A program made the position numbers and the translations under genes. The notes beneath the pieces were generated by a model, which was not told the DNA's origin, searched no databases, and worked only from the letters and a program-made list of their open reading frames with translations. From Podochytrium sp. JEL0797 (taxonomy: Eukaryota > Chytridiomycota > Chytridiomycetes > Chytridiales > Chytriomycetaceae), in contig JADGJG010000153.1 in assembly GCA_027596195.1 (NCBI GenBank), positions 1 through 36,080 of the forward strand: a stretch of 36,080 nt of DNA, read 5' to 3'. Numbering within the stretch: position 1 is the stretch's first letter; each line of letters opens with the position of its first letter. Below are positions 155 to 33,896 of the stretch, in pieces.

Positions 155-1096
155 ATGACGGAATTATTTGGACTCCCCGCCCCCACCACCGATGCCCCCA
201 CTGCCTCGCCCGCAATCCCTCTCGAAGAAACCATCGCAGCGACACCCGCACTGGCAATCCCAGCTTCAGACCCCCCTCTGGACCCCTTTTCGCAACCCGA
301 CAGAGAAACAAGGACCCGGCGCTCGTCCCGCCACTCCACTGTTGCTGCTTCTGCCCTAAAACCCGCCAAGAACTCCCGACCAAGCCCCATTGCTCGCAGT
401 GTGGATCCGAATGCCCGCCACTGCCCCGTCCCAGGCTGCAAACGCACCAACATTGTCTCTGAGAAGCAGATGTACTACCACATGCGAGACTGCCACGCCG
501 ACAAGATCTCGGTCAAGTTTCGTGACTACACGCGCAGTTGAGTCGCGTCCTCGCTTTGTATTTATTTATCTCTAATACAAACAAACAGCCATCCACAAGA
601 ACATTTACGATGGCAGATTCCACTGTCTCGGCTGTGAGTCCCACTTTGGCTCTCCAAGCTCCATGCGATCGCATGCAGCCAATTGCTTCGCGGGAAAAAA
701 TCTGAGCTCAAAGCGAGCAAAATTCGACGACGATGAAGACGAGTTTGGCGAGGAAGCAGTGGATCCCATTTACGAGCCGCATTTGAATTACCGCACGTGA
801 GTCCCTTTCGAGAATTCGCCTCCATTTGCTAAAAGTTCTGCAGAATCATTTCAAAGAAAGTGCCATACCTCTCACTGCCTCACGCATCTAAAGTCACCAT
901 CAAGCAGGCCGTCAAGGCATTTTTCCTCGAGCAGTTGGGCAATGACGACTTGGGGGAGTGTTTGGTCCTCGCGTCGGACCCGAACATGAATTCGACGTAT
1001 TCAGTTCCGGAGAGAGTGAGGGAGAAGTTCACCGAGTGGGTGGATGTGGAATTGCCTCGTTTGGTTGGGCAGGAGAAGTCGGAGGTCGCAATGTGA
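155..1096 (+). CDS. Two-zinc-finger protein with the shared C-terminal module
   Basis: Three exons: 155-536, 589-796 and 844-1096, giving 280 residues; all junctions are GT-AG and in frame. I use the ATG at 155 because the open frame upstream begins only with a TTG. Residues 90-114 form a C2H2-like finger (C90, C95, H109, H114). After a phase-1 intron, residues 140-160 form a second finger (C140, C143, H156, C160). A lysine-rich then acidic linker follows (DDDEDE). A phase-2 intron precedes the last exon, which is the shared module (about 198-275) ending in VPERVREKFTEWVDVELP. Finger order and both intron phases match copies A, D and F further along, so it is a diverged relative of that family. 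A nuclear, nucleic-acid-binding role is inferred from the fingers; target and partners are unknown. Upstream bases 1-154 show nothing I can name. Confidence 0.8.
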
Positions 1097-1227
1097 ATTT
1101 TCCGTTGCCTTTCTTTGCTGTTTTGCCAAAATATATGAGTCTCTTTGATTCGTATCAAAGCGGAAGAAGAGGAGTGTGGGGGATTTCTCCTTTTCTGATT
1201 TTCTCAAAAAATTGACAATTTCAAGCA

Positions 1228-2192
1228 ATGATCACAACGCGTTTCCAACTTGCCCTCTTCCTCCTCACAGGAATTGCCCCCCGCATGATCAAAGCGGACA
1301 GTGACATTACGCACATTATGGTCCTCGGCTTCGACGTGACGCAGACTGTGAACGACCTCACGCCCTGCACAAAGAATTGCTTCACCAATGGAAACTTGAC
1401 TCAAATTTCGCTCCCTCTCACACACATTGAGATGGACAGTTTGTGTCTGAACGTGACGCAGACCAATTCTGTGCAGGAACAGAATCTGTCGACGTGTGTT
1501 TCCGGGTGTGGGAACCAGACGGAAATCAGCATGGTAAGTACTTTTATGAGGAATACCGCACGATCTCATGTATGACGTACTCAACACCGACTCACACGCA
1601 AACCCCTTGCAGGTATCCAACCTTCCATTCCTCTGCGAATTCAGAACCAGCTCTGAGATGCATCGCAAAGCTGAAAAGTTTAACAAGAGAGACCCTGATG
1701 CCACCGCCACCGGGACTGAAACTGACATCCAGTTTGGAACGTTCGACATCACAAACTTAATACAAGGTCTCCATGGTTGCACTAAAGACTGCATTATCTC
1801 TTCGTTGCCGGCGGGAGTCACGTTGCCGCTGTATGCTTCCAAGGCAGAAGCCATCTGTGGGAACGCAACTGCATTCCAAGCCGCGTTCGACGATTGCTTC
1901 AAGAATACATGTCCAGGAACACCTGGATACAACACTCAGGACAAAAATTATGTGTGTATTTTTTAATTGTTTTTTCTCTTTTCCTAACCAAAACTATCTT
2001 GACATGTGACAGGTTGACATGTTTCCCGGCGTGTGTCCCCAGATCTTGGCCAAATTACCCAAAAAGACCGGTGTGAGTGTGACGCCGACTCCCACAACGA
2101 CTGTATCCTTGGACCCGATTTTGTCTCTCAACGGAGTGGGAACGATTGTGGTGCATGGCGGGTTGTTGGCTTTGATGTTTGCCTTTATGTAA
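1228..2192 (+). CDS. Secreted, GPI-anchored protein with two six-cysteine repeats
   Basis: Exons 1228-1533, 1613-1951 and 2013-2192 encode 274 residues with phase-0 introns. The N-terminus is a signal peptide (hydrophobic FQLALFLLTG, likely cleaved near IKA). Two homologous segments follow, starting FDVTQTVNDLTPCTKNC and FDITNLIQGLHGCTKDC. Each has six cysteines spaced roughly C-x3-C-x20/21-C-x12-16-C-x3/4-C-x17-C, suggesting three disulfides per unit. N-glycosylation sequons are frequent (NLT, NVT, NLS, NQT). The C-terminus is a Thr/Pro stretch, then a small-residue region and a hydrophobic tail (GGLLALMFAFM) typical of a GPI-anchor signal. A cell-surface or wall protein is the likely role. 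The pattern recalls fungal Cys-rich domains such as CFEM, but CFEM has eight cysteines in a different spacing, so I do not assign it. Confidence 0.78.
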
Positions 2193-2236
2193 GAGCATAA
2201 AAAAAGAAGACAGTGAGCATAAAAAAAGAAGGCAGT
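2193..2236. repeat. Tandem 22-base duplication after the stop codon
   Basis: Two adjacent 22-base units (2193-2214 and 2215-2236) of the form GAGCATA-A6-GAAG(A/G)CAGT differ at one position. They lie directly after the stop of the GPI-anchored protein gene. This looks like a small local duplication with no evident function. Confidence 0.8.
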
Positions 2237-2306
2237 TTTGTTAGCAAAAAAATAATAAGTGTCTTTCAAAATTCAATCTCCGTGCCTCCACAGGAGATCC
2301 ACCAAC

Positions 2307-2627: not shown

Positions 2628-2672
2628 TTATGAAGAATTTTAAGCAATAGCAAGCTAGATAAGTGTTATTCG

Positions 2673-2859: not shown

Positions 2860-5800
2860 TTATTGATTTTGCTTCGGGAAATGCGTAAGTAAACAACCCT
2901 CCGCCCATACATGAAACTCTGGCCGCAGGGAATCCGGTATTCCATAAGTGTTTGGGTTGCTGGCCGTCCCATCGCCTTTGATAACACACGTTGACAAGCG
3001 ATCTATTCCAACCATTGAGATGAGGTATTCTTTGACTTCTCGTTTAATGACTGTTCTGATATCTCGGCTCGCGCTGCGAAATTCTTTCATGATTCCTTGA
3101 AGAATTCTAACAGGAGGCTTAACTTAAGCACCTTTTGTAAAGAGTTTATGGCTCTAACTTACATGGTATATTTCGTAAGTGGTCCTTCCGATTTGAACTC
3201 AGTCTTGACTGTTGCAATCTCGGCACTGGATGCCAGCTGAGGCGTCATGGTTGGTGGCGCAATATTCAAGTTCGGCTCGATGGAGCTATTGAACCCCATC
3301 TTTTGATCCGTTTCAATTGAATTTTGTATAGTTTCTGGAGGGTCTGGCTCGTTAAAATGTTGCGTTGGAACTGAAACCAGAATTGAAGAAGGGATTTGCG
3401 GGGTATCTTCAATTCGCGTTGGCGATACAGATGTAATTCCATCCATTTCCGATGTCGAATCTGCCGTAGGATTTGAATAGAGTTGACCCAACCCCGGAAT
3501 ATTTAGTCGAGGGCGTGTGACGGAAATGGCTGGTTGAAGTGAAGGGAACGGCAAAGGCTGCGTCTGGAAAATGGGTCCGGATTGAGAAGCGGAGATTTTT
3601 TGAGACTTGTTGTGCTGACTGTCTGAGGTTGAAAATTCTGATGGAACGGTTCTGCTGTTTGGTTTTGTTGCCAGAAGATGTTCGGCGTGGTCAGATGCTT
3701 CGTCCACGAGCGATTGATTAATGCTAGTAGAATTGCTGATGTTTAAACTGGATGATATTGTAGATGCAACGTTCGGAGTCGTCTCAGACGCGACTGGTTC
3801 CATTAATGCATCGACACTCTGAGGGTTACAGATTTTGCTGGGCTCAGTCTCCGTTTCTGCACTGTTAGGATCACAAACGTCTGTCTCTCGGGTTGGCTTC
3901 GTCAACTCTTTTGAAACTGCGAATGGCGCCACCGTTTGGCCAATGCCACCCGTTTCTTCCATAGCGGAATCCACCAAAGTGATACGTGAGTCTGAGACAG
4001 CAACGTCCAAAGACTCGTCCATGCTGTCTGAACTGAGTTTTCGAATCTTCTTTGTCTGCTTTTCCTCACTTGAGACTGAAGCTTCTCGCGACTCGCGTGT
4101 ATTTGCCGCTGTCTCGTCTCCAACGCGAAATGATTGCCGACCGCGTGTGAGTTGACGAGTCTTCTTGGCTGGCTGTTTCTTGGAAGTTGTAGCTGCACGT
4201 TTGCGTAGCTCGGGACGTGCTCTTCTTTCTACAGGTTCCGCTGGAAGCGGTTGCATGCTCCATGAACCGAGATCATCAGTTTCTTCGGCGGATTCTTCTT
4301 CTGCGTCAGAGACTACAACTTCGTGTGACGCTATTGGCGATATTTCGGCTTCGTATTCCACCGAAGGGGGTCCGAGCGGTACTTTGCGAGTTCTGTTGGC
4401 ACGCTGCTTGGCGACCGCAGCACCTGCGGTTAGGCATGGCTGATCCGGCAACGACTCCGTTTCGAATGCGAGAACGGGTTGCGGACTGTCTAAAGCGGAT
4501 TTGCGAGAGTTCTTGGCGCGTCGTTCGACGACTGCAACGCCGGTCGATGTACATGGCTCAACAAGTAACGACTCTGTTTCGTTCTGGGGAGCCGGTTGCG
4601 TTTCGTTTGAAGAGGATTTGTGAGTTCTCTTACCCACCTCCTCGTGTTGAGAAACAGGTGGAATGGGAGGAGTGACGATAGGAACTACGCTTGTTTGCTT
4701 TCTGGGTCGACCACGGCCTTTCTTTATAGGTGCCACTTCCATGCAAGTGTCGGGTGATTCGATTGGCAAGGTGACTTCCATTTCCGCATTCGGTTGTTGT
4801 TTGCCCAAACGCGTCTTCTTTGTAGGCTCATTCTCAACGACAGCGACATCGTCTTTGATGGATTCAAAAGGCAATGACTCTGTTTTCTTTTCTGCGAGAG
4901 CCAGTGTCGCACCGCGTAAATTGAATTTGCGGGTTGGTTTTGCAGGTGGGTCTTCGTCAAAATCGAATGCCGATTCGCGCGAAAGGGAGACTGGTACGGT
5001 TTGATTTTCTGTGGGTATTTGATTTTTGCTGATTGAACGGAATTTGCGAGTCTTCTTTGCGGGTTCTTCCATGTCAGTAGCTGGTTTGGTTGACGCGGTT
5101 TCCTTTTCCATGAGAATAGGGAGTATACTGCGGGTGCTGCGTGTCTTCTCAGTGGACTCTTCTGTGACAGAGGTGGCGGTGGTATTTGACACCGCAGGGC
5201 AGAACTCTGCTGGCTGTGCGCTGCGTAAGTTGCGGGTCTTTTTAGTAGCCTCGACAGCCACCGCAGAGATTTTTTTGAGCAGGATTTTCGCATTCCTCTT
5301 GTGTTTCTCGACGCTTCGCTTTGCCTTCAGAACTGGCGACGACGCTTCCGAGCCAGCAGCATTGGTTTCATCGGCCAAGGGGTGCATGATTTCAGAAGAG
5401 TCTGATTTTTTGGGCAACCCAGTTGAACTTGCTTGAAGAATGGGTGATGTTGTAGGAGACTCGCTGTTGGGCTCCTTGACAGGTATTGGAGCAGCTGTGA
5501 CAGATTTTTTCGGCCTCCCTCTTGATCGCTTTACGGGTTGGGTTGAAGTTGTGGGTTTCGAGCTAGAGGCAGTATTTGAATTTAGGGCAGTTGGAGCGTC
5601 TTCCTTCACGGTGCCAGACTGGTTCAGTTCGAGAATTCGCACATCTGCTGGAGGAATTTCAGTTGTCTGGTTTGCGCTCAAAAGAGCCGGAGGCTCCGCG
5701 TCAGACAGCGTATCGGCAATTGTGTTGGCTTTAGCTGGTTCGGCAACAGATTGAGCTTCAGAGTCGGTTGCGAGATCTGTGCTGGTTGGCTGAGAGATGG

Positions 5801-7580
5801 CGAGCTCTTCTCGCGAAGCGGAATGAAGCGGTGCAGCTTCATTTTTTCCAGTGGATCCATTAGCCCTCTTGATGAGCGGCTCTTCCTCCTCGTCGGAACT
5901 GTCGCTCTCCAACTCTCCCCCCTCGTCGAAACCGACGCTCTGCTCCCCATCCTCCTCGACTGACTGGCGCTCACCCACAATAAACTCTTCTCTCTCGTAC
6001 CACTCTTCTTCTTCCCCATCTTCACTATCTGACACCACAACTTGAGGCTTACTTCCACTCGAGCGACCAACACCACTCACACCGGACGGAGACAACTCAC
6101 TGATCGACTGATCCAAAGTGAATCTACCCTTTCCAACCATCCCCGATTTCCCCACCACATCCGCCCCACGCAGAGATACATCCATAGGAGCCGAATCTTC
6201 ATTAAGCAACACGCGTTTCTGCACTAACGGAGGACTCATCATTTCAAACTCCTCGTCGCCATTGAGCTCAAATTCAGATTCTTGGCGGTGCTCCGAGGAA
6301 TCTTGCCAATCTCCCGCTGTGGAAAACGATTCACTCATCCTGTCCATTTGCAAGTGAGGGGGCAGTGTTGAAGTGGTAGATGAGGTGGAACCCATCCCCG
6401 CATCTTTCCTCCCACGTTGCTGCTTTTGATGCTTCGGATACCGAGCTGTTGAAGCCAATCTATGTGGCCTCGAACGATTGAGTGTTGGGTCACGATGCCG
6501 CGGTTTCTTGGCGCATGTGGCGCAGAGGACTGTTCCAGGTACTTTTCCGAGGCACCAAACAGAGGATTCGGTGATTTGGCAGATGCTGCAGGTGCGTGTA
6601 ATATCGGTGGGTGTGGCTGGTTTGGTGGTGGTGGTGGGTCGTTGGTTGAATGAGGTGTTGGGTGGGGAGGTTGAACGACGGGGGTTGCGCTCTTGGGCTA
6701 GGGCCTCCGCCACTACAAGGAAGTGGAACGCGTTAATTCGGACACATGGATTGTCAGGGGAATGGGCGCCTACTCTTTGAAAAGTCGAAATTATCGAGCG
6801 AAGCACCGCCAGCCCTGTTCACCCGCATTTCGCACATATTTTTAGCCGAAAACACAAACTCGCGTTCGAGGCTGGCCGGAATTCCAAAACATGCCCTCTC
6901 GACTCGATGGGATCCGGCCCCCGTCGTTGCGCGGTACAGGACTCGCATATTCGAAAGATGCTCCTTGAATCCGCGAAACTCGAGAAATTTGGACGCAAAC
7001 GTGTCCATGAATTTGAACTCGGAGTCCGATAATGCGAGTGGTTGCGGTCCCAATGTTGGGTTCGCGCCGGAAATGAAGTTTTGGAGCGCGAGGATCCAGG
7101 GAATGAGGTTGTCGCGGGGTTGGTGGCTTCGCCCGCGCGTGTGGCCAAAAGCGGAGGAGGACGAGCCTGCCGCAGGAATGCTGGGAGTTGTGTTTGTTCT
7201 GGTGGGAGCTGGTCGATTGGCATGCATGGAAGGAGCAATCGCTGTGATGGCAAATTGTCAATCAAAACGCAGTGTAAACAACACTGAGACGCGCGAGAGT
7301 TTGAAGTACCTCTTATGCTGGCAACATTGATTGCTTGCTTTCCAGCAATTGAGATGGTTGACTTCGGTGGAAGGTCATACGATGGGATCGCGCTCTTGTG
7401 GCACGTATCCCTGAGGGCGAGGACTTCCTTGTAAAGGAGCAGGAGGTCATCCTTGACGTCGCTGGTTCGATCTTCTTCTGCTCGAAGTCGATCTGAGGTT
7501 TTGATGCGTTCTTCGAGCACCTGAATGTATTTGACACGAAACTCTGAAGGTTCTTGACGGTGACGGTCGGGAAATGACAT
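2860..7580 (-). CDS. Large GATA-type zinc-finger/AT-hook protein with coiled coil and shared C-terminal module
   Basis: My model has four exons on the minus strand: 7580-7310, 7241-6774, 6712-3163 and 3106-2860, giving 1511 residues. Exon 1 is a coiled coil related to that of the neighbouring gene at 7636-8877. Exon 2 ends with a weak copy of the shared module (FGIPASLEREFVFSAKNM, lacking the Trp). Exon 3 opens with a GATA-type finger, C-x2-C-x18-C-x2-C (about residues 288-313). It then runs as about 1,100 acidic, Ser/Thr-rich residues with a recurring K-K-T-R-K-like motif and two AT-hooks (SRGRPKK near 5515, KGRGRPRK near 4715). A phase-2 intron precedes the final exon, a full copy of the shared module. 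The 6713-6773 intron is inferred: exon 3 has no ATG before its finger, so it needs upstream exons, and this intron keeps frame, but its GTAGGC donor is weak. An AATAAA overlaps the stop codon. A chromatin or transcription role is inferred. Confidence 0.68.
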
Positions 7581-7635
7581 GTGTTTCTTGCGACAATTTT
7601 TCGTTTCAAACCCATAAAACCCATATCCTGTCTCC

Positions 7636-8877
7636 TCAAAAATCCATGCTTATCTCACGATCGGGAAACTTCTTCTTAAGCTCATTGAAGATCCACTCGC
7701 AAAATTCATCCCCTAAATGGGAGGGAATCCCGTACACCACTTTTGCACTCGTTCCACCACCAGCCCCCCCCCCTCCTCCACTGCTCTCGCTAATTCCACA
7801 AATGGCTTGCCAATTATGCCCGAGTTTTCCCAACAAGAACTGCGACACGGACCACTTGATTGACATTTTTTCGTTGAATGTGAGAGACGAGTAAGAAGGC
7901 ATCATGCTTTCAATGTACGCCGTGTATCCGATTTTGGCTTCGTCTATTGCTGCTGCTGTTGCTTGTTGGCGGGTTGAAGTGTTGTCCTGCGGAATAAGTT
8001 TTGTCGGGGCAGGCCCAAAAATATGCGCGAGTGGATCTGGTTCGTTTTGAATCGGAGTGTTGGTTTGACGCGTCGGTTGTTGCTTTTGGGTGATCTGCTT
8101 CGGAAGAGCGCGAGGTTTTGGAAAGTCGCGATCCATTTCGTTGTCTGATTCATCATTGGCGAGCTGTGAGAGGGAAAAACGAAAGAACGAGTGTTGAATA
8201 TTTGAACCACCGGAAAGACGAATCTCTTACCTTTGATTTGATCGGATCTTCGGGATACACGATTTTCCCCTGCTTCACGAGCTGAGAGCATCGGAGACAC
8301 AAGACGATAGCGGACGGGCCGAGAAACCAAGATTGAGACGTGGTTGCAGTACAAGCTTGACAAGAGTGGGGTGGATCCGGGTCCTGGTTCGGATGAAGAT
8401 TGATTCTGGACGCAGCGGCTGTTGGCTTTGGGGTTTTGGGGGGAGGATCCGGGTTCTTTTTCGGTATGCGTTTTTTGACAGGTGCAGCTGGGCGGTGCAG
8501 TTGCTTCGGATTCAACTGAGGAGATGAAGAGCCTGATGAAATGTAGATGGGAGAAGGATCGCGTCTTTTGGCGGCTGTTGCGTTTCGAGCAAGATGTTTG
8601 ATCAGCGATCGCGTTTTTCAAACGCGACATTCTGATTACTCTTACCGCTCAATTTGCATTTCAGCATTCCGACGGATGATGGGATGTGAAATGTGCCGAC
8701 ATGGTTGTCCAAACAGGCTTTACGAAGGGCCAGTGCCTCTTGGAGCAGGAGCGACGCGTCGTTGGTCAGCTCATCAGCAACAGCTACCTGTTTTTCGAGT
8801 TTCTCGCGAGTGCTGATGAGATCTTCGAGCGTTCGCAGATACTTTTCTTGATCGCTGCCTTTGGACGAAAAAAACAT
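7636..8877 (-). CDS. GATA-type zinc-finger protein with coiled coil and shared C-terminal module
   Basis: Three exons on the minus strand: 8877-8646, 8532-8231 and 8163-7636, encoding 353 residues with phases 1 and 0. Residues 10-65 are a coiled coil; the motif LLLQEALALRKAC parallels LLLLYKEVLALRDTC of the 2860-7580 gene, so the two adjacent genes are paralogues. A Lys/Pro-rich linker leads to a GATA-type finger, C135-x2-C138-x17-C156-x2-C159, with SWFLGP in the loop. A Gln/Thr-rich stretch follows. The shared module occupies about residues 268-353: YIESMMPSYSSL at its start and YGIPSHLGDEFCEWIFNEL near its end, with a Gly-rich insert between the halves. Here the module has no intron in front. 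A sequence-specific DNA-binding role is likely from the finger family; targets are unknown. The start lies 166 bases from the divergent calcium-pump gene. Confidence 0.82.
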
Positions 8878-9043
8878 GGACCGTATGTTTCGCAACGACA
8901 AACCAAGTCGAGAAATTCGAAAGTTGAAAAGAATTCGATAAAATGAAAAGAGGAACGCGATTTGAAATTGAACGTAAATGACTCCGTGGAACTTGGAAAG
9001 TGCGCGTCTCTCCGCAAAACCCCTTTTGGAAATTTCCAAAAAT
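8878..9043. promoter_or_regulatory. Shared divergent promoter region
   Basis: These 166 bases separate the start codons of a minus-strand GATA-type gene and the plus-strand calcium pump, so both 5' regions must lie here or overlap the genes. I see no clear TATA box. The region is A-rich in its middle. An upstream ATG at 8978 is in frame with the pump and could add 22 residues. Confidence 0.4.
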
Positions 9044-12611
<3,568 letters not shown>

Positions 12612-12832: not shown

Positions 12833-14846
12833 CTAATCCTGTTCTCCAAACGCAAAATTGCTTGCCATCACTGCACTTCCCGGAAAACAACGCGACAATT
12901 CCTTGTACAACCACTCTTCAAAAGTCGGCACAAAATCATACGGGATCCCAATCCTCGCGCCTTCTTCTTCTTTTTGCTCCGCCGCGTCGGAGTCCTTCTC
13001 ACTGCTCCGCGGAATCAAAAAATCGCGGCCTGGATCGTCGTACACTTCTGCGAGAAGCATCCGCACGCCTTCCACGATTGCGGACCGTTCCGTTGTCAAG
13101 AGGAGGTGGTTCGAGGGCATGATGGTGTTGAAGATGGTTGTGAAGGGGTACAGGGTGGAGGGGTCTTCGTGCTGCCTTTGCGCGTTGGGGTTGGTGGTTG
13201 TGGTTGGGGAGACGAGGAGGGATGGGGTTGTTGAGGGCGGAGGGGCGCTTGTTGATGTTGAGTGTGGCGGGGAGGGTTGGTGGTGTGGGAATTGGTGGAG
13301 GTGTGAGGTCAAGGGGGGACATGAGTGTTGCGGTGGTTGATGTTGTTGCTGTTGGATATTCGTCGGGTTTGGTGGGGACGAGGAGGGGCGTTGGTGGAGT
13401 TTGGGTCGGGTGAGAGATTGTGGGTGGTTAGTGGTGTTGGTGCGCCGCCGGGTGGGTGGGGCGGGGTGGATTGGTTCTAAAGTGCGGCGGGTTGGGGGGA
13501 AAGAGGAGGAGAAGGAGGAGGGTGTCTCTTCGGCTGCGGCTGCAGTGTGGGCAGGCAAGTCGGAGATGCTGAAGGGGGGTGACGAGTGTCTGTGATAGAT
13601 ATGTTAGTTGGGGGAAAGGTGCTGGAGAGAAATGGAGGTGAGGAATGTGCGGGGGTGTCACCTTTTTGCTAATCTGGGGGACTCGGTGGAAAGAGTCTGC
13701 AAAGAAATGGAACACGATTGATTCATGGCGTAAGGCGACACGCAGTCCTCGCAGAAAAAATCGTCTTCAGTTGGCACGAACGTGGGGCCGAGACAGCCCG
13801 TGTGATACCACTTGGAGCATATTTCGCATTGAACCATCTCGCCACCTAAAGGCAAACCGCAGCAATATTGGCCAGCATCGAGTTCGGCGGGTTCTGTTGA
13901 CTTCATCGTGGTGGCCGCAGGAACTTGCACCACATGCTCCGTGTTCTCCGCGGGTTTCACATTCGATTTCGTGTCTTCTGCGCGGTTCAAATTCGATTCC
14001 GTGGACAAGGAAGGGGAAATGAGATCCCTCGATGTTGATGGCTTCAATTTCGTTTTGAATCGGATGGTAACGCGCGGGTTGCATGAGTTTTTGATGTGCC
14101 AGCGCATGGCTGAAGAAGTGACGATTTTGGATTTGCCGCAACAAGGGCAGGTGAAGTAGCCATCGGAATCGCGTGTAACGGCTGGCTTTTTGTGTGAGCG
14201 AATGAATCGATGGAACACACGCACCTCGATCCCCCTTCGGGAAATGGAAATTTTGAGTTTGAATATGATAATCGGCCACATGTTCCCGCAGCGCCCTTGC
14301 AGAATGGGAATGCTTTTCGCGATGACAGCCGGGGACGGGACATGGGTTTTCAAACTTTGCTGGTGAGGAGGAGGCTGATGTTTTGGAAGCCTTTCGCGGA
14401 GGATCGTTGTATTCCGGATCATGCTGGGATGAGGGACGCAGCGACAAATGGGGAGCAGCTGGTGGGGCGGGGGGATCAACTGTGACTGATTCGTGCGGGT
14501 CCTCGCCGTTCAAGGCATCGAGAAGAATGTGCAGGCCACCGTGGTCGAATTTCGGACAGATCCCAGGCGGGATCCCAGGCGCTGTGCCAGACATGCCAGG
14601 CGGCTGACCAAGCGTGCCAGACATGCTAGGCGGGACGTTAGGCGGGATGCCAGCCATGTCCTCTAGAAGAGCCACCCGATACCGCAGGTCTTGGTTCTCG
14701 GCCGCCAAGCGATCGACTTTCGCCTCAAGACCCAACGAGGCATCCTGCATCGCCACCTCTGCCGAAGCCAGGCGAGTCACCAGCGATGCCAGCTGTGTCG
14801 CGAGCATCTGCGTCAACGAGGTCGGTGTCGAGGCGCTGCGAGACAT
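12833..14846 (-). CDS. Zinc-finger/PHD-finger protein with coiled coil and shared C-terminal module
   Basis: Three exons on the minus strand: 14846-14225, 14181-13662 and 13589-12833, encoding 632 residues; the introns are phase 1 and phase 2. Residues 12-62 are a leucine-heptad coiled coil. A Pro/Gly/Met-rich repeat follows, then finger 1 (CPVPGC...H-x4-H, about 168-193). The phase-1 intron falls after it, as in the 155-1096 gene and copies A, D and F. Finger 2 is at 219-241 (CPCC...H...C). A PHD finger spans 314-354 with GEMVQCEICSKWYHTGC and a C-x2-C end. Its first Cys pair is adjacent (CC) instead of C-x-C, which is odd. A long Pro/Ser/Thr/Gln-rich stretch leads to the shared module (about 545-632; IGIPYDFVPTFEEWLYKEL), without a preceding intron. 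PHD fingers commonly read histone H3 tails, so a chromatin role is inferred. Confidence 0.82.
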
Positions 14847-16750: not shown

Positions 16751-17115
16751 ATGACTCACCAATCCGATCTCGCCGACATCCCATCGCTCCAGCACACGAT
16801 TTCTCAGTTGCGCTGTGATCTGGCTCTCGAGAAGCTGACTGTGGCTCGCCTGGAGCTTGAACTTCACCAGTCCCGCACGAAAACGCCGGGCGTTGTGAAT
16901 CCATTGAGTGTGGGAGATGCCGGATCGCCGATAAGTCCCACAAGAGAACTTGGGTGTGTGGATGCGACTGTTGCGGCTCCTTGTTTGGCGCAATTTCCGT
17001 GCGATTTTGTTGGATGCAACAAGACGTTCCGTTCGATGCCCTCCCTGAACAGCCACAAATGGGCGTTCCATTTGCAGTTCTTCTCCTTCAAATTCAATGG
17101 AAGTTCTGAACGAAC

Positions 17116-17162
<47 letters not shown>

Positions 17163-20018: not shown

Positions 20019-20586
20019 AGTGCGCGTTTGGGAGAGTTTTTAAACCAGTTGGTTTATCATTACGCTCTTTTTTATGTTTTCACTTTCATTTTCAAATTTT
20101 GCGCTACCTTTTCTCCCCTTTTTCCAACTTGCACAAAGGCTAATAGTACAGCAAATGTTATCTTCTTATGTTATTATTTCTTATTGAATTTCGCGTTATC
20201 AATGGCTCACCAACCCGATCCCCCCGACATCTCATCGCTCCAGTCTACCATTGCCCAGCTGCGCTGTGAATTGGCTCTTCAAAAGCAAACCATGGCTCTC
20301 GTGGAACTCGAACTCCACCAGTTGCGCGCGAAACCGCCGGCCGCATTGAATCCTTCGAGTGCGGGAGATGCCGGATCGCCAATAAGTCCCATCTCCGCAC
20401 CACTGACGACAAACAAACTCGTGTGTGTGTGTGGGGCTGTTGCGGCACCTGCCAAGCCGGAATTTCGGTGCGATTTTGATGGATGCGACAAGACGTTCCA
20501 TTCGATGCCCTCCCTGAGCAACCACAAAGAGGCGTTGCATTCGCAGGTCTTTTCCGTCAAATTCAACGGAATCTCTGAACGAACCG

Positions 20587-20616
20587 GTGTGTGAGTGTGT
20601 GTGTGTGTGTGTGTGT
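20587..20616 (+). repeat. GT-rich microsatellite at the splice donor of copy C intron 1
   Basis: Fifteen dinucleotides, GT except for one GA at 20593-20594, begin at the predicted donor. This is the same position as the longer tract in copy A. Confidence 0.85.
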
Positions 20617-21258
20617 ATTCGGGGTGCGTTGGGTTTTGACATCATGGGCAGAAATCACGCGCAACCAGGTCGATGGTCTTCTCCACTGTCCCTGTGGATC
20701 CTATTCAGGTGCCAGTGGAGTATCGCTTCGGAACCACGCAATCTCGTGTCCCGGCAGCGCCGATTCCTCCTCTGCCCCCCTCTGGCATCAACTGCTGACC
20801 CTCAAGGTGCCGGAATTATCAGCCTCACGGGCGAGAATTCTCAGATCCTTTCTGCATGAGCGAAGCATCGAGTTTCTTGCAGCGCACAATCTCCCAAATC
20901 GACCGAAATGCACATCAAGATTCCGGCGGACTTGCAGGACGAGTATGTCGAGTTTATGCGCCCTTTCATCATGCTCAGGATTGCAGGCTTGCGTACCTAT
21001 TGGAGCGAGCCTAAGCACACCCAAGCCGGAGATTCGTCGCTGAAACGATCAGCTCCGCAGGAATTCGAAGTGGGTGAGCATGAGCATGGTTCCATCAAGC
21101 AGATGCGTTTGGACGCGATTGAGCCTCTTAGGGGTGTCGCGATTGGGGAACCGAACGAAGCAGGATTAATTCCATTTCGTAAGTATTGTTTTCTTTCGTT
21201 TTCCTTGCCTGTCCGCGTAAAAACAGAACGCGAACGATTTTGACATATTCATTTTCAG

Positions 21259-21863
21259 AATCCTGCGTGGGCTCTTGCCAAGCTTCGACTCATTGCCAAG
21301 TGAATACAAGGATGCGATCCACCAAGGAATTCGCGAGCTGTCGTTGTCCCATCCAGATTCTGTGGATCCTGTACCCACCAAAGCCGGAAATTCTTCGCAG
21401 GATTTGAAATTGGTGGGACAGCATGGTTCCATCAAGAAAATTCGTTTCGACGCGATTGAGCCGCTTGAGGTTGTCGCGATTGGGGAACCGAACGAAGTAG
21501 GATTGACTTCCGATTCGTAAGTATTGATTTCTTTCCTTTTCCTTGCCCTCGCGCGTAAAAAAAGAACGCGAACGATTTTGAAATACCTATTCCTTTCAGA
21601 ATCCTGCGTGAACTCCTGCCAAGCTTCGACTCATTGCCAAGTGAATACAAGGATGCGATCCACCAAGGAATTCGCGAGCTGTCGTTGTCCCGTCCGGATT
21701 CTGTGGATCCTGTACCCACCAACGCCGGAAATTCCTCACCGGTCTTGGAAGTGGTGGAGAAGCGTGGTTCCATCAAGAAAATGCGTTTGGACGAGGACGA
21801 GATTGATCCACTGGAGGGCGGCGCGATTGGGGAACCGGACGAAGCAGGCTTGGATTCCAGTTT
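21259..21863 (+). repeat. Tandem pair of hybrid module/linker exons in copy C
   Basis: Two near-identical exons (21259-21516 and 21600-21863) with an 83-base intron between them. Each starts like the C-terminal module exon (ILR-x-LLPSFDSLPSEYKDA), switches after GIREL to linker sequence (PDSVDPVPT...GSIKK), and ends at a normal phase-2 linker donor. Both are multiples of three (86 and 88 codons) and phase 2-2. They look like products of unequal exchange between the two exon types, followed by tandem duplication. Confidence 0.8.
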
Positions 21864-22168
21864 GTAAGTGTAGTTTTCTTCCCTTTTCCTTGCCTGCTGG
21901 CGTAAAAGCGAACGGGATGATTTTTAGTTGACGCGAAAAACAAATTCATTTCAGAATTCTGCGTGAAATCATGCCAAGCTTCGACACATTACCAAGCGAA
22001 TACAAAGATGCGATCAACAAAGGAATTCGGGAGTTGTTGGAGGAATTCGAAATCCCTGTCGTTCTTTCGTCGGTTCGTGTTCCTTCCCATTTTGTGGACG
22101 GACTCAAGGGATGGTTATGTGATCAGTTGCGCATGTGCTTGCCGGATGCTGAGTTGAATGATGTTTGA

Positions 22169-22539: not shown

Positions 22540-23895
22540 ATGACTCACCAACCCGATTCCGCCATCTCTGTCATCACATCGCTGCAGTCCACCATTGCCC
22601 AGTTGCGCTGTGAACTGGCTCGCGAGAAGCTACCTGTGACTCGACTGCAGCTTGAACTCCACCAGTCACACACGAAAACGCCCGTAGAGAATCCCTTGCA
22701 GCAACTCAGTGCGGGAGATATCCGATCGCCAATAAGCCCGACAAGCGATCTCAGGTGTATGGAAGCGACTGTTGCGGTACCTCCTTTGGTGGAATTGCGG
22801 TGTGACTTTGGCGGATGCAACAAGACGTTCCGTTCGATGCCCTCCCTGAACAGCCACAAATGGGCGTCCCATTTGCAGGTCTTTTCCTTCAAGTTCAATG
22901 GAAGTTCTGAACCAACAGGTGCGTGTTGGGGTGCGTTGGGTTTTGGACCAACTTGTTTTGACGCTATCATGATCAGAAATCACACGCAACCATTTTGATG
23001 GCCTTCTCCACTGTCCCTGCGGGTCTTATTCAACCGCCAACGCATCATCGTTTAAGTACCACACAAACTCCTGTCTTGGCCGCGTCGATTCTGGCTCCAC
23101 CCGCCTCCACTGGCTTGAACTGTTGACGCTCAAAGTACCACGCTTATCAGTCAAACAAGCCCACAGCCATAGACCCTTTCTGTACGCGCGCAGCATGGAA
23201 TTCCTTTCGTCTCGGAATCTCCCGAATCGACCGAAAATGCATGTCAAGATTCCGGCGGACTTGCAGGAGGAGTATGTCGAGTTTATGCGTCCTTTCATCA
23301 TGGTCAAGATTGGCGACGGGAAACAAACTTTGAAGACGAAATGCGCTGCCATTTTGGAAGGGACCCGTGTTGATTCCGGAGGCGCGTTTGTGTCCCGTCG
23401 CGATTCGATTGATCCTGCGCAAGGCCAAGCCGGAAACTCGTCGCAGAAACGACCAACTCCACAGGACTTGGAAATGACGGATCTACATGGTTCTATCAAG
23501 AAAATGCGGTCGGATCAGATTGAGCCACTTGAAGGCGATGCGATTCGGGAACCGCACGAAAGAGACTCGGATTCCAATTCGTAAGCGTGTTTTTTTTTCT
23601 TTTGCTTCGCATCCTCGCAAAAAAAAATGAACGCGAACGGATTTTGACACATTTCCTTTTCAGAATCCTGCGTGAACTCCTCCCAAGTTTTGACGCGTTG
23701 CCAAAGGACTACAAGGACGCAATCCACGAAGGCATTCGTCAGGTGTTGGAGGAATTCAAAATCCCCGTCGTTCCGGCAGCCGATGAGCCCGATTCGTCGG
23801 TTCGCGTTCCGTCCCATCTTGTTGACGGGCTCAAGGGATGGTTGTGTGATCAGTTGCACATGTGTTTGCCAGATGCTCAGTTGAATGATGTTTGA
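22540..23895 (+). CDS. Array copy D: two-finger protein with doubled module, intact
   Basis: Exons 22540-22918, 22977-23580 and 23664-23895 encode 404 residues; the introns are phase 1 and phase 2, as in copy A. The N-terminus has the same coiled coil (SLQSTIAQLRCELAREKL). Finger 1 is C88, C93, H106, H111; finger 2 begins CPCGSYST and ends HTNSC. The middle domain runs from HWLELLTLKVPRL to IPADLQEEYVEFMRPFIMVKI. The linker carries GSIKKMRSDQIEPLEGDAI, basic then acidic. The last exon is the shared module (ILRELLPSFDALPKDYKDA to VRVPSHLVDGLKGWLCDQL). It has no GT expansion at its first donor. With copy A it is one of two apparently functional members of this array; targets and partners are unknown. 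Confidence 0.85.
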
Positions 23896-25123
23896 AGCGC
23901 GCGTCTGCTGGGAGAGTTTTGCTAGAGTCTTGCTATTTTTTAAACCAATTTTGACAAATTCCTCTTTCCATATATTCTTCCTTTTCGAATTTGCAGTTTC
24001 ATTTTCCGAAATGATAATACCCTTAATGGCAGGAAGCTCCCCCATATCGCTTCATCTGACTCGCTTGTTTGGGGAAGAACCTCCTTTCATACCATTCCAC
24101 TCCTCAACACTATTGATTTTGTCGTTGACTTGTTTTCGATTAGATTCGCAAACAAAATTAGCACAAAATTAGTCGACCGATATCGCACTGTGCTGCTGCA
24201 TGTCTTTGGTGACGGGTTCAAGGTTCTGTAGAGTTTTGTGTGAATCATGCCAAGATGCGAATCGTCGCCAAACAATACCAAAAACGTTGGCAGGCGACGG
24301 CAATTCCACGCACCTAGCTCTGAATGCTCCTTCTGTTTTCCAAGCATCGGGACCGCTTATGCACGTGCTCCACCCACCCCAAACGCATACACAAACAGCA
24401 TGTCGCGCGAAGCACGAACATAAAGGTCCTCCAAATCTCTACAACGCTCGCGATGTCCAACAATGCGGGCTTGGTGCCTGTCGAAGACGTCAGGTACGCG
24501 AGAATCGGACCCGATCGTTGAATGTGGATTCCGGGCAAGTGAAACTCCTTTCCTCCACCAAACATTGAAACACCTAGCAGGATCTGAATGCTTTCGTCTG
24601 AAATGGGGGATGTCGAGGAAGAGGATGCGTCTGCCGCGTGGTTTCGCGATTCCGCTTGAGTGCGAGCAAATTCGTGGATTGCGATGGCTTTTCGGGGGTC
24701 TGCGATTTGGCATTTGTAAAGCGCTGATTAGGCGGTGGAATCGAACGCGGCATTGCGGCGTTTCATGTCGGGTTCTTGTAGACGCTTCGAGGATCAAGGA
24801 CCTGAGAAAGTGGGGGATTGGGGCAGTGGACGGATTGGTAGGGAAAAACGAGAGGAGCGTATCGCCGATCAGGACGGCCCAGTGGGATGCCGTGAGTGAA
24901 TTCAAAAGCTGAGGAGCGTGTTTCGAAACAATCGAGTACAGTTGGTAAATGTGGGAAGGTCCTAGGCCCATTAATGGACTCGTTGCGGAACGGATTGGCA
25001 GGGAACAACGAGAGGAGTGTGTGGCAAATCAGGAAGGCCCAGTGAGATGCCGGGAGTGAATTCAAGACACGAGGAACCCTCCTCTTTTTCCATTTTCAAA
25101 AAAATTCAATATCAACTGATTCG
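23896..25123. other. Long gene-poor stretch with an unrecognised minus-strand remnant
   Basis: The first 230 bases match the 3' flank of copy A in part. From about 24314 to 25065 the minus strand has open stretches in shifting frames. One is a frame starting near 24565 with GGGKEFHLPGIHIQRSG; another is the repeated motif LNSL-x-ASHWA-x-LI. I recognise no family. It may be a decayed gene, because the motif is preserved in both copies of a tandem duplication, but I cannot define exons. Confidence 0.35.
24831..25074. repeat. Imperfect 84-base direct repeat, 160 bases apart
   Basis: Units at about 24831-24914 and 24991-25074 share most positions (CGGATTGG-x-AGGGAA through GTGAATTCAA). On the minus strand both encode a similar peptide, LNSL-x-ASHWA-x-LI-x2-TLLS, suggesting the segment was coding when duplicated. 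Confidence 0.75.
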
Positions 25124-25834
25124 ATGGCCGACGACGCATACGGCGAGCTTGCAATGGGCGCGGATGGCCAATTCATTATTCCCAAAAAGTCCAAGGTGAT
25201 TAGCTTCCGCTGGCAAGATGGCTTCGTGTCCCCGTTCTTGGCGACTTCTCAGACGGCCCTGTCGAATCTTGTTGCGGCCATTCAAACGCTGCACGCCGAG
25301 CGCCCAACTGGTTCCGCGCCCTTCGATTCTGTCGTTGATCTGGGATCTGGAAAGGGCGATATCTTGTTCGCTCTGGCCGATGCATCCGAACCAGGCGGCT
25401 TGTTGCACGGGAAACTGGCAGGGAAGTTTGTTGGGGTCGAACTGGACGGGGAGCTGGTTGCCGAATCAAACGCCAAGGCCGCTGCCATTGGGCTCTCTGC
25501 GGGACGTAGTACTGAGCACGAGCTTGTTTTCGTGAAGGGGGATGTGGTGACGCACGAAATTTTCTTGGGACCAGCGGAGATGGAATCGGTGTTTGGCTGC
25601 CCGAAGACCACTGTCGAGTCGGTCTGCAGTGCAGCAGATATAATCACCGTGTTTTTGCTGCCCGCTGCAATCTCAAAAATGATACCGTTTCTGCGGCGCA
25701 TGATTGAGGGCGGAAAGATTGTTATCTCCATCAAATGGTCTCTCGAATATTCTGGCCAATCATTGGAGGAATATCGTGATTCCGCCGCCAGCAGCGATTT
25801 TGACGTGAAAATATATAGAAGAATTCGTGATTAA
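25124..25834 (+). CDS. SAM-dependent methyltransferase, FAM173/ATPSCKMT-like
   Basis: An intronless gene of 236 residues. Motif I for S-adenosylmethionine binding is VVDLGSGKGDI (70-80), followed by an acidic strand end in FVGVELDGELVAES. A later strand is ADIITVFLLPAAISKMIPFL, then EGGKIVISIKW. The segment GFVSPFLATSQTALSNLV before motif I fits the family pattern P-F-x-P-T/S-x5-V of FAM173-like protein-lysine methyltransferases, which modify mitochondrial targets such as ATP synthase subunit c and the ADP/ATP carrier in animals. Substrate assignment here is inference; a DOT1-like or other small class I methyltransferase is the alternative. No clear N-terminal targeting peptide is visible. 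The next gene starts only 50 bases after its stop, on the same strand. Confidence 0.75.
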   Translation: MADDAYGELAMGADGQFIIPKKSKVISFRWQDGFVSPFLATSQTALSNLVAAIQTLHAERPTGSAPFDSVVDLGSGKGDILFALADASEPGGLLHGKLAGKFVGVELDGELVAESNAKAAAIGLSAGRSTEHELVFVKGDVVTHEIFLGPAEMESVFGCPKTTVESVCSAADIITVFLLPAAISKMIPFLRRMIEGGKIVISIKWSLEYSGQSLEEYRDSAASSDFDVKIYRRIRD

Positions 25835-25884: not shown

Positions 25885-28800
25885 ATGCGCTCCCTCTTCC
25901 ACCAGTCCACCCCGCCTGCTGTGATCACCCAACTGAATGGCAAGATATCCGATCAATCCAACACGATCGCGAAGCTTGAGGCCGCGTTGGAAGCTCAAGC
26001 CTTTGCTGTGACAAGCCAGAAAGACCAAATCGAAGCTCTCAAAGCCACCTTGGCGCTGGCCGACAAGCGAGACCAACTGGCATCCCAAAATGCGTCCTCG
26101 ATGACTGCCTCCTTGACTCGGGCACTCCAAGAGAAATCGGCTGCACATCACGAGATCTCGAGATTACAATCGCTCAACCCTTCGGCTCCGGCTTTATCCG
26201 ATCCCACCGCGCCATTTTCTCACCCTCCCGCACCATTTGACCGTGCGGATTCTGGGATTTCTCTCCCTGAAACGGACCTGGTGCCTTCCATCCGCTTGCT
26301 CACAAATTGGCTCGTTGAGAACGGATTCAAGGCCGACCGCCAATTCTCGGATCAATTCGCGTTTGCAAGCAACGATGCAATCAACGTGCCGGTTGTCTCA
26401 TGTGAGGAGGAGGGGCCTTTGAAGAACCAAATTGCCCAGTTTTTGGCCCCAGGCTCCAAAGTCCATGCTCTCCTTGCCAAGGCCATGCACGGACTTTTGG
26501 CAAATCATTCAACTCTCGATATTTTGAAGCACAAGAGTTTGGGTTGTGTGGACAAGGATGTTCACCAAGATGTGGGCTTCATGCAGAGAATGGACATTTT
26601 GATGGATGAGTTCCCCCTTGCTCTCTCCTTGAAGAGGGCTGTTTTTGAAGAGGAGGAAATCAAGATGGATTGGAGAGTGTATTCATGGGAGGATGCTGCC
26701 AAGAGGTTGAGGGCTGTTGTTCAGGAGAATGTGGGATTGAAACAAAGGAAGCTCAAGTTAGAAAGGGAGATTGGGGATTTGGAGCAACATTTGAGAAATT
26801 TCCAGTCAAGCAAGCCTGTTCCTGGGTTGGACAGTGATATTTTGGCAGCCATGAAGCAGGTTTGTAATTTTTTGCTTGTTTCCAATCTGGTTTTCTAAAA
26901 TACTGTTTTTTATTTGAAGGCCAAGAGCCACTGGAGAGAGTTTGCTGAAAGGAAGTATGACTACTTCATCTCTTACCGTGTCAGCAGTGATGCCCCACTG
27001 GCCAAGGAAATGTACTTCCGCCTGCGTTTGATGGCATCCAATGACCGCGTGTTTTTGGACTCTGAGAAGCTCAAAGATGGAAATGTGAGCACCTTTCTCA
27101 ATATTCATTCTCTAAAAAAACTCAAAATAGGATTGGACTGAAGGTTTCTCAACTGGGTTAAAACACTCCAAGATTGTCGTGCTCATTGTTTCTGATGGCT
27201 CTCTGGAACGAATGAAACATGCCAATGAGTCTCAGGACAATGTATTGCTTGAATGGGAAAATGCCATCCTAGCAGCAGCAGAAGCACAATGTGCAGTATT
27301 GCCCAGTAAGTTATTTCAGTCAATTCTTTCCCCCCTACTCCATTAACCATTGGAATAGTTTTTGTAGGAGATGTGATTTCTTCACTCTACTCTGTCCAAC
27401 TTCCAGACAAGCGTTTTGAGAACCCAGTCAAGACCATGGGCCAGTGCTTCCTCAGTCCCCATGAAATTATCCGTCACCTCCGTTCACTTCAAGGAGTCTT
27501 TTTGCCAGACATGCGAATGTTGAAGCAGATTCTTCCCAAGTTTTCAGAGAAGCTTGATGACATCAATAAGTGTTGGGTGGAGAAACTCAGCAGGGCGGTG
27601 AGGGCCAAGGATGAGCTTGGGTTGGGGGACATTTCAAGAGTTGTCTCTGTCAAGTCTGTACCAAACACTGAGTTGTTGAATGCCTTTTTGGAAAGCAGTT
27701 TGACATACTTTGACAAATGGGAGTGTCTTTCTTTGGAAGGTGAACACTCACACACACACATGCACACACTCAAACCCACACACACAATAACACTCAGAAT
27801 GCCCTTTTCGAGACTCTTCATCAAGGCAACTGTTGGCAAAGGCCATTTCTGGAAACTCAGAAATTAGGGAAATTTGTGTGTCCAGTTGAGTATTTCTTTT
27901 TAAACTTTTTTTAATGTGGATACACTACTCATTTTAAAACAGAGTCAGATTTGGGTGTCTGTGAAACTGGCTTGAACAAAGATGACTTGATCAATCTGTT
28001 CAAGCAAATTGCAGCAAAATCAAATTTGCGCCTTTTGTCCTTGTGTGGTTGGTGTTATCTTCCTGCTGTTGACCATATTAACTTAAGCTATTCTTTCAGA
28101 CTCAAAGTTCAAGCAACTTGATGTCTTCATTCACCTGTTTGGAAACACATCAGTTATGAAAGATATCACTTTGGAGCTATCTGGTATGTTCTTGCATGTT
28201 TGTGATTTTGCTGACTGGTTGAAACAGGAAATGAACTCAACAATGGGGCTCTCAACAGCTTGTTTCTGAATTCCAAGTACAGCTTCATCTCTGAATTGGT
28301 GGTCACCAGAAACAACCTCACAAATCAAGACATGAGCCTGGTTGCAACAGCACTCCTCAAATCCTCCACCATTCGGGTTCTCAATTTGTCAGACAACTTG
28401 ATCAACCTGGAACAGGGATGCAGGAGCCTCACAATGTTGCTCAAGGGCTCCCAGTCTCTTCAGGAACTGGTGCTGGGTGGAAACAAGGTCTTGCCAAAGG
28501 GAGTGCAAGCCATTGCTGATGGCCTTGCACACAGCAAGACATTGATCAAACTGGACTTATATGGTAAGATTGAAGTATGCTACACCTGCTGATCAGAATA
28601 TTTTGTGATAGATTCCCACTTTGGACCAAAGGGTGCTCAGCAGTTAGCAAAATCACTTGAGTGCAACAGCTCCTTGGAATCTTTGAATCTTGAAAGTAAT
28701 TAGAGGTTTTAATTTATTCTCTCTTATTATCTTTTTTTTTCCTTCTTAGAAACTGGAATCCAACTTGGCGGTGCTTGGGCCATCATGTTGTCAGTGGCAG

Positions 28801-30857: not shown

Positions 30858-30866
30858 TATATCCAC

Positions 30867-31589: not shown

Positions 31590-32558
31590 GACTGTTTGGA
31601 TCCTACTCTACCGAGAATGGGCATTGAGATCCCCACCAACTTGCAGGATGAGTATGTCGAGTTTATGCACCCTTTTATCATGTCCAAGATTGGCGGCGTG
31701 AAGCAAACGTCAAAGACGCAATGTGCTGGAATTTCGTCTTGGATCCATGGTGATTCCGAAAACGCGCTTGATTCTGTCGATCCTGCGCAAGTCGAAGCCG
31801 GAAACGCGTCGTCGAAACGATCGGTTCCGCTGACTGAGCAGCATGGTTCCATCAAGTAGATTTTGTCGGACGAGCTTCTTGAGGACGGCGAAATTGGGGA
31901 ACCAGACAAGGCAGGCGTGGATTCCAGTTCGTAAGTGTAATTTTCTTTGCATCCTCGCGTAGAAAAGAACGCGAACGATTTGACGCGAAAAATCTCTTTT
32001 TAGAATCCCGCATGTCGGAATTTTGGAAGTTTTCCATGTTGATTCCGAAGACGAGCTTCTCTCCCGTCCCGACTCTCTCCAACCGGTGCAATCCCAATCC
32101 GAAAAATGGTTGCCGAAACGGTCAGCTCCGCAGAACTCGGAAGTGACTGAGCAGCACGGTTCCATCAAGAAGATGCGTTTGGACGAGATTGAACATGTTG
32201 AGGGCGACGCGATTGGGGAACCGAACGAAGCAGACCTGGATTCCTCTTTGTAAGTGTAGTTTTCTTTTCTTTTCTTTGCATTCTCGCGTTGACGATTCGA
32301 CGCGAAAAAACAAACCCTCTTTTCAGAATCCTGCGTGAAGTCCTACCCAGCTTCGACGCATTGCCAAAGGAATACAAGGATGCAATCAACAAAGGAATTC
32401 GGGAGCTGTTGGAGGAAGTCAAAATCCCCATCGTTCCGTCAATGGATGTGCCCGACTCGGCAGTTCGCGTTCCTTCTGATTTTGTGGCTGAGCTCAAGGG
32501 ATGGTTTTGTGATCAGTTGCGCATTTGTTTGCCGGGTGCTGAGTTAAATGATGTTTGA
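31590..32558 (+). pseudogene. Copy E: 5'-truncated family copy with a premature stop
   Basis: Homology begins in the middle domain (LPRMGIEIPTNLQDEYVEFM), so the start and both fingers are missing. The linker is interrupted by TAG at 31857-31859, where other copies have a Lys codon in GSIKK. Its donor is at 31931. A hybrid exon (32004-32249, 82 codons, phase 2-2) follows; it starts with a rewritten module beginning (IPHVGILEVFHVDSED) and ends as linker (GSIKKMRLDEIEHVEGDAI). The final exon (32327-32558) is a complete module (ILREVLPSFDALPKEYKDA to VPSDFVAELKGWFCDQL). The splice sites and last exons are well kept, so decay of the front end may be recent or caused by the truncation. Confidence 0.8.
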
Positions 32559-32661
32559 GAATATTGGAGTTACTTTCCATTCGACGTATAATTGTAGAAT
32601 ACGAAAATCGATCACGAAAATATTCCAAGTTTTTCCCCGCTCGCGCAATTGTTCACCTCCG

Positions 32662-33896
32662 ATGGCTCCCCACACGAAGAGAAATGGTTCGAAAACAACA
32701 ATCCCTTACAAGAAGCTCGCAGCAACGTTCCACTGCAAGGTTGAAGGCTGCGGCAAGGTGTGCAACACCCTTCAAAAGTTTCAAAGTCACAACTACGCAT
32801 ACCACGTGGACGTGGTGCGCGTTCGGTTCAAGAGAAGCAGGGTGCTGACTGGTTGGTTTCCTTTTCTCTTCGCTTGGGTATTTTCAAACATCTCACACAC
32901 TTCCTCTACGGGTCGGAACAGAAATCCGGCGAAACCCAGGCGACGGCCACCTTTCCTGTCCTTGTGGCCAATTCTCGTTTCGCGCTTCCTCTCATCTTTA
33001 TGCGCATGCAAAATCGTGTTCCGGCACATCTGCTTCACCCGCAAAGCCCCGCCCTCCGCCACCTCAGAATAAGGCCTGGCCAAAAGTTCATTCGAAACCA
33101 CCCTTGCCTCCGAAAGTGAAACCCGCGATCACCCCGCGCAGCCTCACGTGGTTCCAACTGCTCTCGCGCGAATTCCCCGATCTTGTCATCTACCAATCGG
33201 GCAGCAGTCCCCGCGCGACGCTGCATGCAAAAGTGGAGCTATTTTTGTCGACCCACAGGTGCCCGATTCCAAAGAAATGGGGACATCTCAAAGTTCCAGA
33301 GCATTTGCATCGCGAGTTTTTTGAGTTTATGCATCCGGTGTTGCTGGCGAGAGTCCAGAAGATGCGGAGCCCTGGAAGTGTGGAGATGAGAAATGCGTCT
33401 GCAAAGAGAAGGATATCGCAGGATTTTGAGAAAGACGAGCAGCCATATTCTACCGAAATGAATCACGAGAATGTGATTGGAATGACCGAGAACGATCTTG
33501 CTGACGACATGGGGGTTGGGGAGACAAGCGAGGTCGATTTGGATTCCGACGCGTGAGTTTTCTTGTTCTTATTATCATCGCTAAGGAGCATGGTGCATGC
33601 CCTCCAGAATCGTGAGCGAAATCATGCCAAGTTTCATCACCCTGCCCACCGAACACAAACACGCGGTCCGCTCTTCGATTCGCGAACTCCTGGCTGAATT
33701 TGATCTTCCCATCGTGCAGACCAGCGACGCGTCAGACACGTCCGTGTGGATTCCGTTTGATTTTGAGGAAAAGTTGAGGGAGTGGTTGCATGTCCAGTTG
33801 CGTGCGTGTTTTCCAGACGCCGAGTTGAAGGATTTGAGTTCTTCTTTTCCCACCGACGCGTTGGAAGTTGAAGCGCGAAATAATCAAATGAACTAA
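32662..33896 (+). CDS. Copy F: diverged, intact two-finger protein with doubled module
   Basis: Exons 32662-32851, 32922-33552 and 33608-33896 encode 369 residues; the introns are phase 1 and phase 2 as in copies A and D. The N-terminus is short and lacks the coiled coil. Finger 1 is C25, C30, H43, H48; finger 2 is CPCGQFS ending KSC. A Pro/Lys-rich linker is unique to this copy. The middle domain runs from LTWFQLLSREFPDL to VPEHLHREFFEFMHPVLLARV. The final exon is the shared module (IVSEIMPSFITL to IPFDFEEKLREWLHVQL), with an extra C-terminal tail of about 20 residues. It is the most divergent of the intact copies, so it helps define which module residues are constrained. Confidence 0.83.

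Follow-up and report, generated by a model that had tools for sequence, protein, structure and literature searches.

A repeated C-terminal helical module and its diverged form in zinc-finger and other proteins of the chytrid Podochytrium sp. JEL0797

Families that join a constant domain to variable fingers, such as those with KRAB and SCAN, are known from animals. SCAN and KRAB are small pairing or cofactor-docking domains on the expanded finger proteins of vertebrates, where they lie N-terminal to C2H2 arrays, and KIX is a small three-helix protein-interaction domain found in regulators. The ZAD of insects has four zinc-binding cysteines. Drosophila melanogaster is credited with 91 ZAD genes, of which 37 fall into 13 clusters, and the domain is described as mediating protein-protein interaction (PMC7655104). 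Here we describe a gene family of Podochytrium sp. JEL0797, a chytrid (Chytridiomycota, order Chytridiales) whose assembly comprises 24.4 Mb in 995 contigs. The window, i.e., the whole of contig C61 (36,080 bases), carries genes whose products end in a shared module of ~75 residues, with the working name CTM (C-terminal module); a diverged form upstream of it has the working name MID.

The CTM and its diverged form

An earlier note on this DNA had claimed that seven proteins share the same C-terminus, and had quoted a motif for it. Both claims are borne out. In our gene models, the CTM closes all seven genes (g155, GATA1, GATA2, the PHD gene, and copies A, D, and F), and the motif is correct: P49, W59, and L64 are invariant across the nine CTM rows of the window; in a set of 28 genome rows, P49 and W59 show no variation and P7 and L64 almost none. 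Intact CTMs are also present in copies C and E, for which the note had made no claim. Copy B retains two CTM fragments only, and copy C has two extra truncated CTMs besides the intact one.

Single-sequence queries and a profile run over fetched genome pieces gave 40 CTM matches, 33 of them near-full (at least 58 residues, starting at the profile start). The genome search scores best candidates only, and all family counts are lower bounds. At least 33 near-full CTMs thus lie on 11 contigs: nine on C61, five on C228, four on C218, three each on C157, C378, and C451, two on C893, and one each on C181, C526, C666, and C743. Most of them (29 of 33) sit on contigs with two or more. Partial or unfetched matches were seen on C645, C614, and C757.

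The CTM is a real shared module, beyond chance. Profiles built without the target, and without any row sharing more than 35% identity with it, recovered 33 of 33 CTMs, with E from 4.9e-22 to 5.7e-10, in a set of 2393 open reading frames (ORFs) from the fetched pieces, the 33 having first been gathered by similarity. As a genome query, one CTM from C893 found at least 32 places at E ≤ 1, of which 22 at E ≤ 1e-3, itself included. The diverged CTMs of the window are weak as single queries (four places for g155, with the best non-self E of 1e-3; six for GATA1, 10 for the PHD gene, and 14 for GATA2), and hence the family link depends on the profile.

Many of the proteins carry upstream of the CTM a second region with the pattern W-x2-[LIV]..P-x-F..F..IP-x2-L..[FY]..M. 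Comparison of a profile of 24 of these MIDs with that of 33 CTMs aligned 62 columns in the same order, with the probability of 93.8% and the score of 36.5. The highest score among 250 column-shuffled MID alignments was 21.5, and the reversed alignment scored 13.6; in an earlier comparison of eight MIDs with 28 CTMs, the score was 30.1 against the best of 20.3 in 300 shuffles. The CTM is therefore one form of a wider, predicted helical domain of ~70 residues, and the MID is its diverged homologous form. The framing of the family as a C-terminal module only, as in the earlier note, is too narrow, since the sister form lies inside many of the same proteins.

Where MIDs occur, one to four of them precede the CTM: single ones in copies A, D, and F, and, ahead of a lone CTM, three on C893 and a run of four on C451. 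No region of g155, GATA2, or the PHD gene scored in the MID profile search, and a region of GATA1 resembles the MID by eye, with a profile E of just 0.033. The two forms differ in charge. Each of the 27 MIDs of at least 50 residues has a positive net charge (+1 to +10), and 29 of the 33 CTMs are net negative, with two at zero and two positive (Mann-Whitney p ~4e-10, an overstatement, as the rows are related).

The genes and modules of the window are as follows. The CTMs of g155, GATA1, GATA2, and the PHD gene are placed by window alignment, profile, and leave-out test, and the genes GATA1, GATA2, and PHD by gene models; coil-like N-termini were recognized by eye.

155-1093, plus strand: g155, exons 155-536, 589-796, and 844-1093; finger pair, then CTM
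845-1093, plus strand: CTM of g155
2863-7580, minus strand: GATA1 gene, 1511 amino acids, exons 7310-7580, 6774-7241, 3163-6712, and 2863-3106; coil-like N-terminus, GATA-like finger, CTM
2863-3105, minus strand: CTM of GATA1
6820-7104, minus strand: possible MID-like region of GATA1, weak and uncounted; W and IP-x2-L align
7639-8877, minus strand: GATA2 gene, 367 amino acids, exons 8646-8877, 8231-8574, and 7639-8163; coil-like N-terminus, GATA-like finger, CTM
7639-7917, minus strand: CTM of GATA2
12836-14846, minus strand: PHD gene, 632 amino acids, exons 14225-14846, 13662-14181, and 12836-13589; coil-like N-terminus, finger pair, PHD, CTM
13742-13861, minus strand: PHD finger, residues 315-354 (Pfam; coordinates converted by hand from the gene model)
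12836-13135, minus strand: CTM of the PHD gene
16751-18129, plus strand: copy A gene (gene model, domain matches)
17343-17555, plus strand: MID of A (profile)
17902-18129, plus strand: CTM of A (profile, leave-out test)
18739-20012, plus strand: copy B (profile matches)
20203-22165, plus strand: copy C (profile matches, repeat scan; NCBI protein P0001)
21956-22165, plus strand: intact CTM of C
22540-23892, plus strand: copy D gene (gene model; final splice as in NCBI protein P0002)
23105-23317, plus strand: MID of D (profile; AlphaFold2 model)
23665-23892, plus strand: CTM of D (alignment, profile; AlphaFold2 model)
31605-32555, plus strand: copy E, remnant-like, with half a MID (31605-31694) and an intact CTM (32328-32555)
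32662-33893, plus strand: copy F gene (gene model, profile matches)
33146-33361, plus strand: MID of F (genome query, profile)
33609-33893, plus strand: CTM of F and tail, the latter being the last 19 residues

Fingers, gene structure, and selection

The partners of the CTM are variable, as the earlier note had it, and its list of finger types stands in part. Upstream of the CTM we find C2H2/C2HC-like finger pairs, a GATA-like finger in each of two proteins, and one true PHD finger (PF00628, 29.3 bits, above the Pfam cut-off of 24). By a pattern scan, the GATA-like fingers are C-x2-C-x18-C-x2-C in GATA1 and C-x2-C-x17-C-x2-C in GATA2, with a tryptophan; no Pfam family, GATA included, matched GATA2 or the finger-bearing first 354 residues of GATA1 at E ≤ 1. 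The cysteine and histidine spacing of the finger pairs is C2H2-like by eye, and the pairs remain under the Pfam cut-offs: gene D reaches 16.6 bits at best against 25, and g155, F, and the PHD gene's pair draw no score.

Architectures were called by chaining matches on the fetched pieces, where an upstream finger near a piece edge could be missed. One or both fingers of the pair lie upstream of 17 of the 33 CTMs, and a MID upstream of 16. Eight CTMs have a MID with no finger found, or seven without the remnant E (C378:10369, three on C451, C666, C743, and C893:5220), and eight have neither a finger pair nor a MID, including GATA1 and GATA2 with their fingers of the other type. Hence, the description of the CTM as simply the tail of zinc-finger proteins is too narrow. 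Two neighboring genes on C893, with CTMs 55% identical, differ in that one has a finger pair and the other does not. The finger-less proteins of C378 and C743 bear basic stretches (KKAK/KRKR) between the MID and the CTM. A one-base gap between two pieces of C218 probably hides one further gene with a finger pair and a MID. On the same contig, at 4740-9240, a MID is followed by two and three consecutive finger pairs, which suggests that the finger pair itself multiplies in tandem. The long exon of GATA1 (3163-6712) contains RGRPKK and RGRPRK motifs, AT-hook-like by eye.

Introns of the window models recur at the same places. A phase-1 intron separates the two fingers in g155, A, D, F, and the PHD gene, and a phase-2 intron directly precedes the CTM in five of the seven models (g155, GATA1, A, D, and F), in which the CTM is one exon; GATA2 and the PHD gene have no such intron there. 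In 18 of the 32 CTMs having upstream sequence, an AG stands one base before the first CTM codon, in the same position and phase. These acceptors, the only splice element considered outside the window, comprise 13 flagged by a script and five read by eye (two on C451, two on C893, and one on C666), for which the profile match begins one residue later. In NCBI protein P0002 (gene D), the last exon is joined as in our model, and in P0001 (HDU98_002661; gene C), each module begins at the same residue. The NCBI models here are incomplete or merged: the start of both P0001 and P0002 falls within the MID, and P0003 combines two neighboring genes of C228. The family may therefore be hidden from protein searches.

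By simple pairwise estimates over ~70 codons, the remnant-like copy E included, every unsaturated pair has a ratio of nonsynonymous to synonymous substitution rates (dN/dS) below 1. The ratio is 0.14-0.42 for the CTMs of A, C, D, E, and F with three copies from C157, at unsaturated dS; 0.33-0.83 for CTM pairs with two rows from C228, several of them saturated; and 0.20-0.81 for the MIDs.

Copies B (18739-20012) and E (31605-32555) look degraded, with fragmentary modules and missing N-terminal parts. Gene C contains, at 21083-22037, 2.8 repeats of a 341-base unit bearing truncated CTM exon starts, and so the start of the CTM exon was duplicated in tandem. Microsatellites (GT)n at 17118-17157 and 20587-20616 start where intron 1 starts in A (modelled) and C (inferred), and the repeat thus seems to include the splice donor.

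Other features of the window include a P-type ATPase-like gene (by eye) at 8978-12611, between GATA2 and the PHD gene, and, between copies D and E, a methyltransferase-like ORF at 25046-25831 (Methyltransf_32, E of 5e-4, under the cut-off) and a leucine-rich-repeat ORF at 28215-28589. By eye, a truncated N-terminus of the family (~33980-34260) adjoins two long minus-strand ORFs in the region 33980-35860, which are gag-like by eye, with a Cys/His-rich end, and have no Pfam match.

Predicted structure and known families

The model of the CTM of D, made from nine window rows, has helices at residues 2-11 (broken), 14-30, and 50-67 (mean predicted local distance difference test, pLDDT, 74.3; predicted template modelling score, pTM, 0.55). 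In the model of the MID of D, from five window rows, helices span 3-10, 16-21, 23-36, and 51-69 (mean pLDDT 88.1, pTM 0.77). The long middle helix, the last helix, and the IP turn correspond in the profile alignment, through which the models were compared; both forms are thus predicted to be helical, with elements in corresponding order. The check for a common fold, proposed in the earlier note, is answered only in part, by one CTM model of medium confidence and one confident MID model.

The statement that no described family matches agrees with our searches. In Pfam, 28 CTMs gave no significant match (six families each matched one member, with the best E of 0.02), 24 MIDs gave no significant or repeated match, and no family was common to the members. 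In the PDB, the MID profile had no match by sequence at E ≤ 10, the best CTM match had E of 0.33, and neither model was significant by fold, Foldseek giving the best E of 2.9 for the confident MID model; second-look fold alignments of both models fall within the range of common arrangements. SBE2_M (PF22874) scored 27.9 bits against the cut-off of 27 on P0001, over the truncated module repeats, probably by chance, as two repeated fragments contribute; none of the 28 CTMs matched it at E ≤ 1. ZAD, SCAN, and KRAB had no Pfam match at E ≤ 1 among the 28 CTMs and six proteins of the family, with GATA1 represented by its first 354 residues, and cysteine is absent from the invariant or nearly invariant columns of the 28 CTMs (P7, P49, W59, and L64), which sets the module apart from ZAD.

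Still, the domain could be a too-diverged member of a known small helical interaction superfamily, e.g., KIX, which we regard as rather unlikely. Small helical domains diverge fast, the CTM model consists of three helices, the last of them set off by a long loop, and a missing match in the fold tool shows neither difference nor novelty. The Pfam and PDB results above speak against such membership, as does the lack of a KIX match in Pfam at E ≤ 1 for sets of nine and 28 CTMs and for the 24 MIDs, or in the PDB by sequence.

The many matches expected in related fungi were not obtained. Protein searches gave either no match or Podochytrium proteins only, and no relative was found beyond this genome; these searches needed shared five-residue words, and the NCBI models are fragmentary, so the result shows only that close relatives are out of reach.

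Possible roles and comparison with constant-domain families

With moderate confidence, we propose an expanded family of nuclear proteins whose fingers and/or basic MIDs make the contact with DNA, and whose acidic CTM docks or pairs. Because a constant end is joined to a variable part as in ZAD, we infer, by analogy only, DNA contact for the fingers and MIDs, and pairing or docking for the CTM, for which the earlier note had likewise suggested dimerization or cofactor binding. The proteins would act as nuclear regulators that hold DNA, or chromatin in the case of the PHD protein, by finger pairs, GATA-like fingers, and/or basic MIDs in tandem, and a basic linker would import the protein. The CTM would serve as the constant end for mutual pairing or for docking on one shared cofactor, and through it new DNA-contact parts could be swapped onto one output.

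Several points weigh against this proposal. The charge of the CTM is not uniform (two zero and two positive of 33), and for 17 of the 33 CTMs the fetched pieces yielded no MID; hence, the MID may not be obligatory. The CTM model is of medium confidence (pLDDT 74.3, pTM 0.55), and the correspondence of the two models comes from the profile alignment. Some pairs with the C228 rows have dN/dS of 0.73-0.83. Copies B and E look broken, and decay may be under way in part of the family.

The opposite charges of the two homologous forms, which occur in one chain for 16 of the 33 CTMs, could also mean that the MID and the CTM bind each other, in a basic-acidic head-to-tail pairing within a protein or between copies, and that the MID stays off DNA; co-assembly would then be the main way in which the family works. 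We consider this unlikely, given the 17 CTMs without a MID on the fetched pieces, and since up to four MIDs before a single CTM, as on C451, fit repeated DNA contact at least as well. It is very improbable that we are dealing with genes of a mobile or selfish element outside host regulation, an origin that would explain the clusters, the broken copies, and the rapid divergence, and that might draw on the degraded look of B and E, the duplicated exons in C, and the truncated copy adjoining the gag-like ORFs. The latter have no Pfam match, no transposase, reverse transcriptase, or integrase was noticed among the window ORFs read or scanned (no dedicated search was made), and the common introns and the dN/dS values under 1 are consistent with host genes that were duplicated in the ordinary way. 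Finally, a chance or compositional origin of the motif, for which one could cite the shortness of the module and the weak single-sequence matches between its most diverged members, is rejected with near certainty by the leave-out recovery of 33 of 33 CTMs, and is contradicted by the common intron site and dN/dS as well.

Our proposal of a nuclear family with a pairing or docking end could be carried further, but only as a doubtful, speculative extension. The MID and the CTM would then form a new superfamily with its own fold, in which MIDs in tandem (up to four) would bind DNA at longer sites, the CTM would be the common pairing end, and zinc fingers would have been added later and could be exchanged. 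Such a superfamily of transcription factors would be private to its lineage, invented and expanded within chytrids.

A single chytrid genome contains at least 33 copies of a module from a domain unmatched in Pfam, although not every copy sits in a working gene, and censuses that rely on known domains would probably overlook the core of the family. The CTM, at ~75 residues, is a concrete target for structure and partner tests, and the MID is a candidate new DNA-contact domain.

Compared with SCAN and KRAB, the CTM is C-terminal rather than N-terminal, and the fingers here are short and unusual. It differs from ZAD in being C-terminal, in lacking conserved cysteines, in having a basic sister form, and in its pairing with GATA-like fingers, a PHD finger, or no found fingers. 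Nevertheless, the CTM family is similar to the ZAD of insects (PF07776) in combining lineage-specific expansion, often clustered genes, and a constant domain joined to variable fingers.

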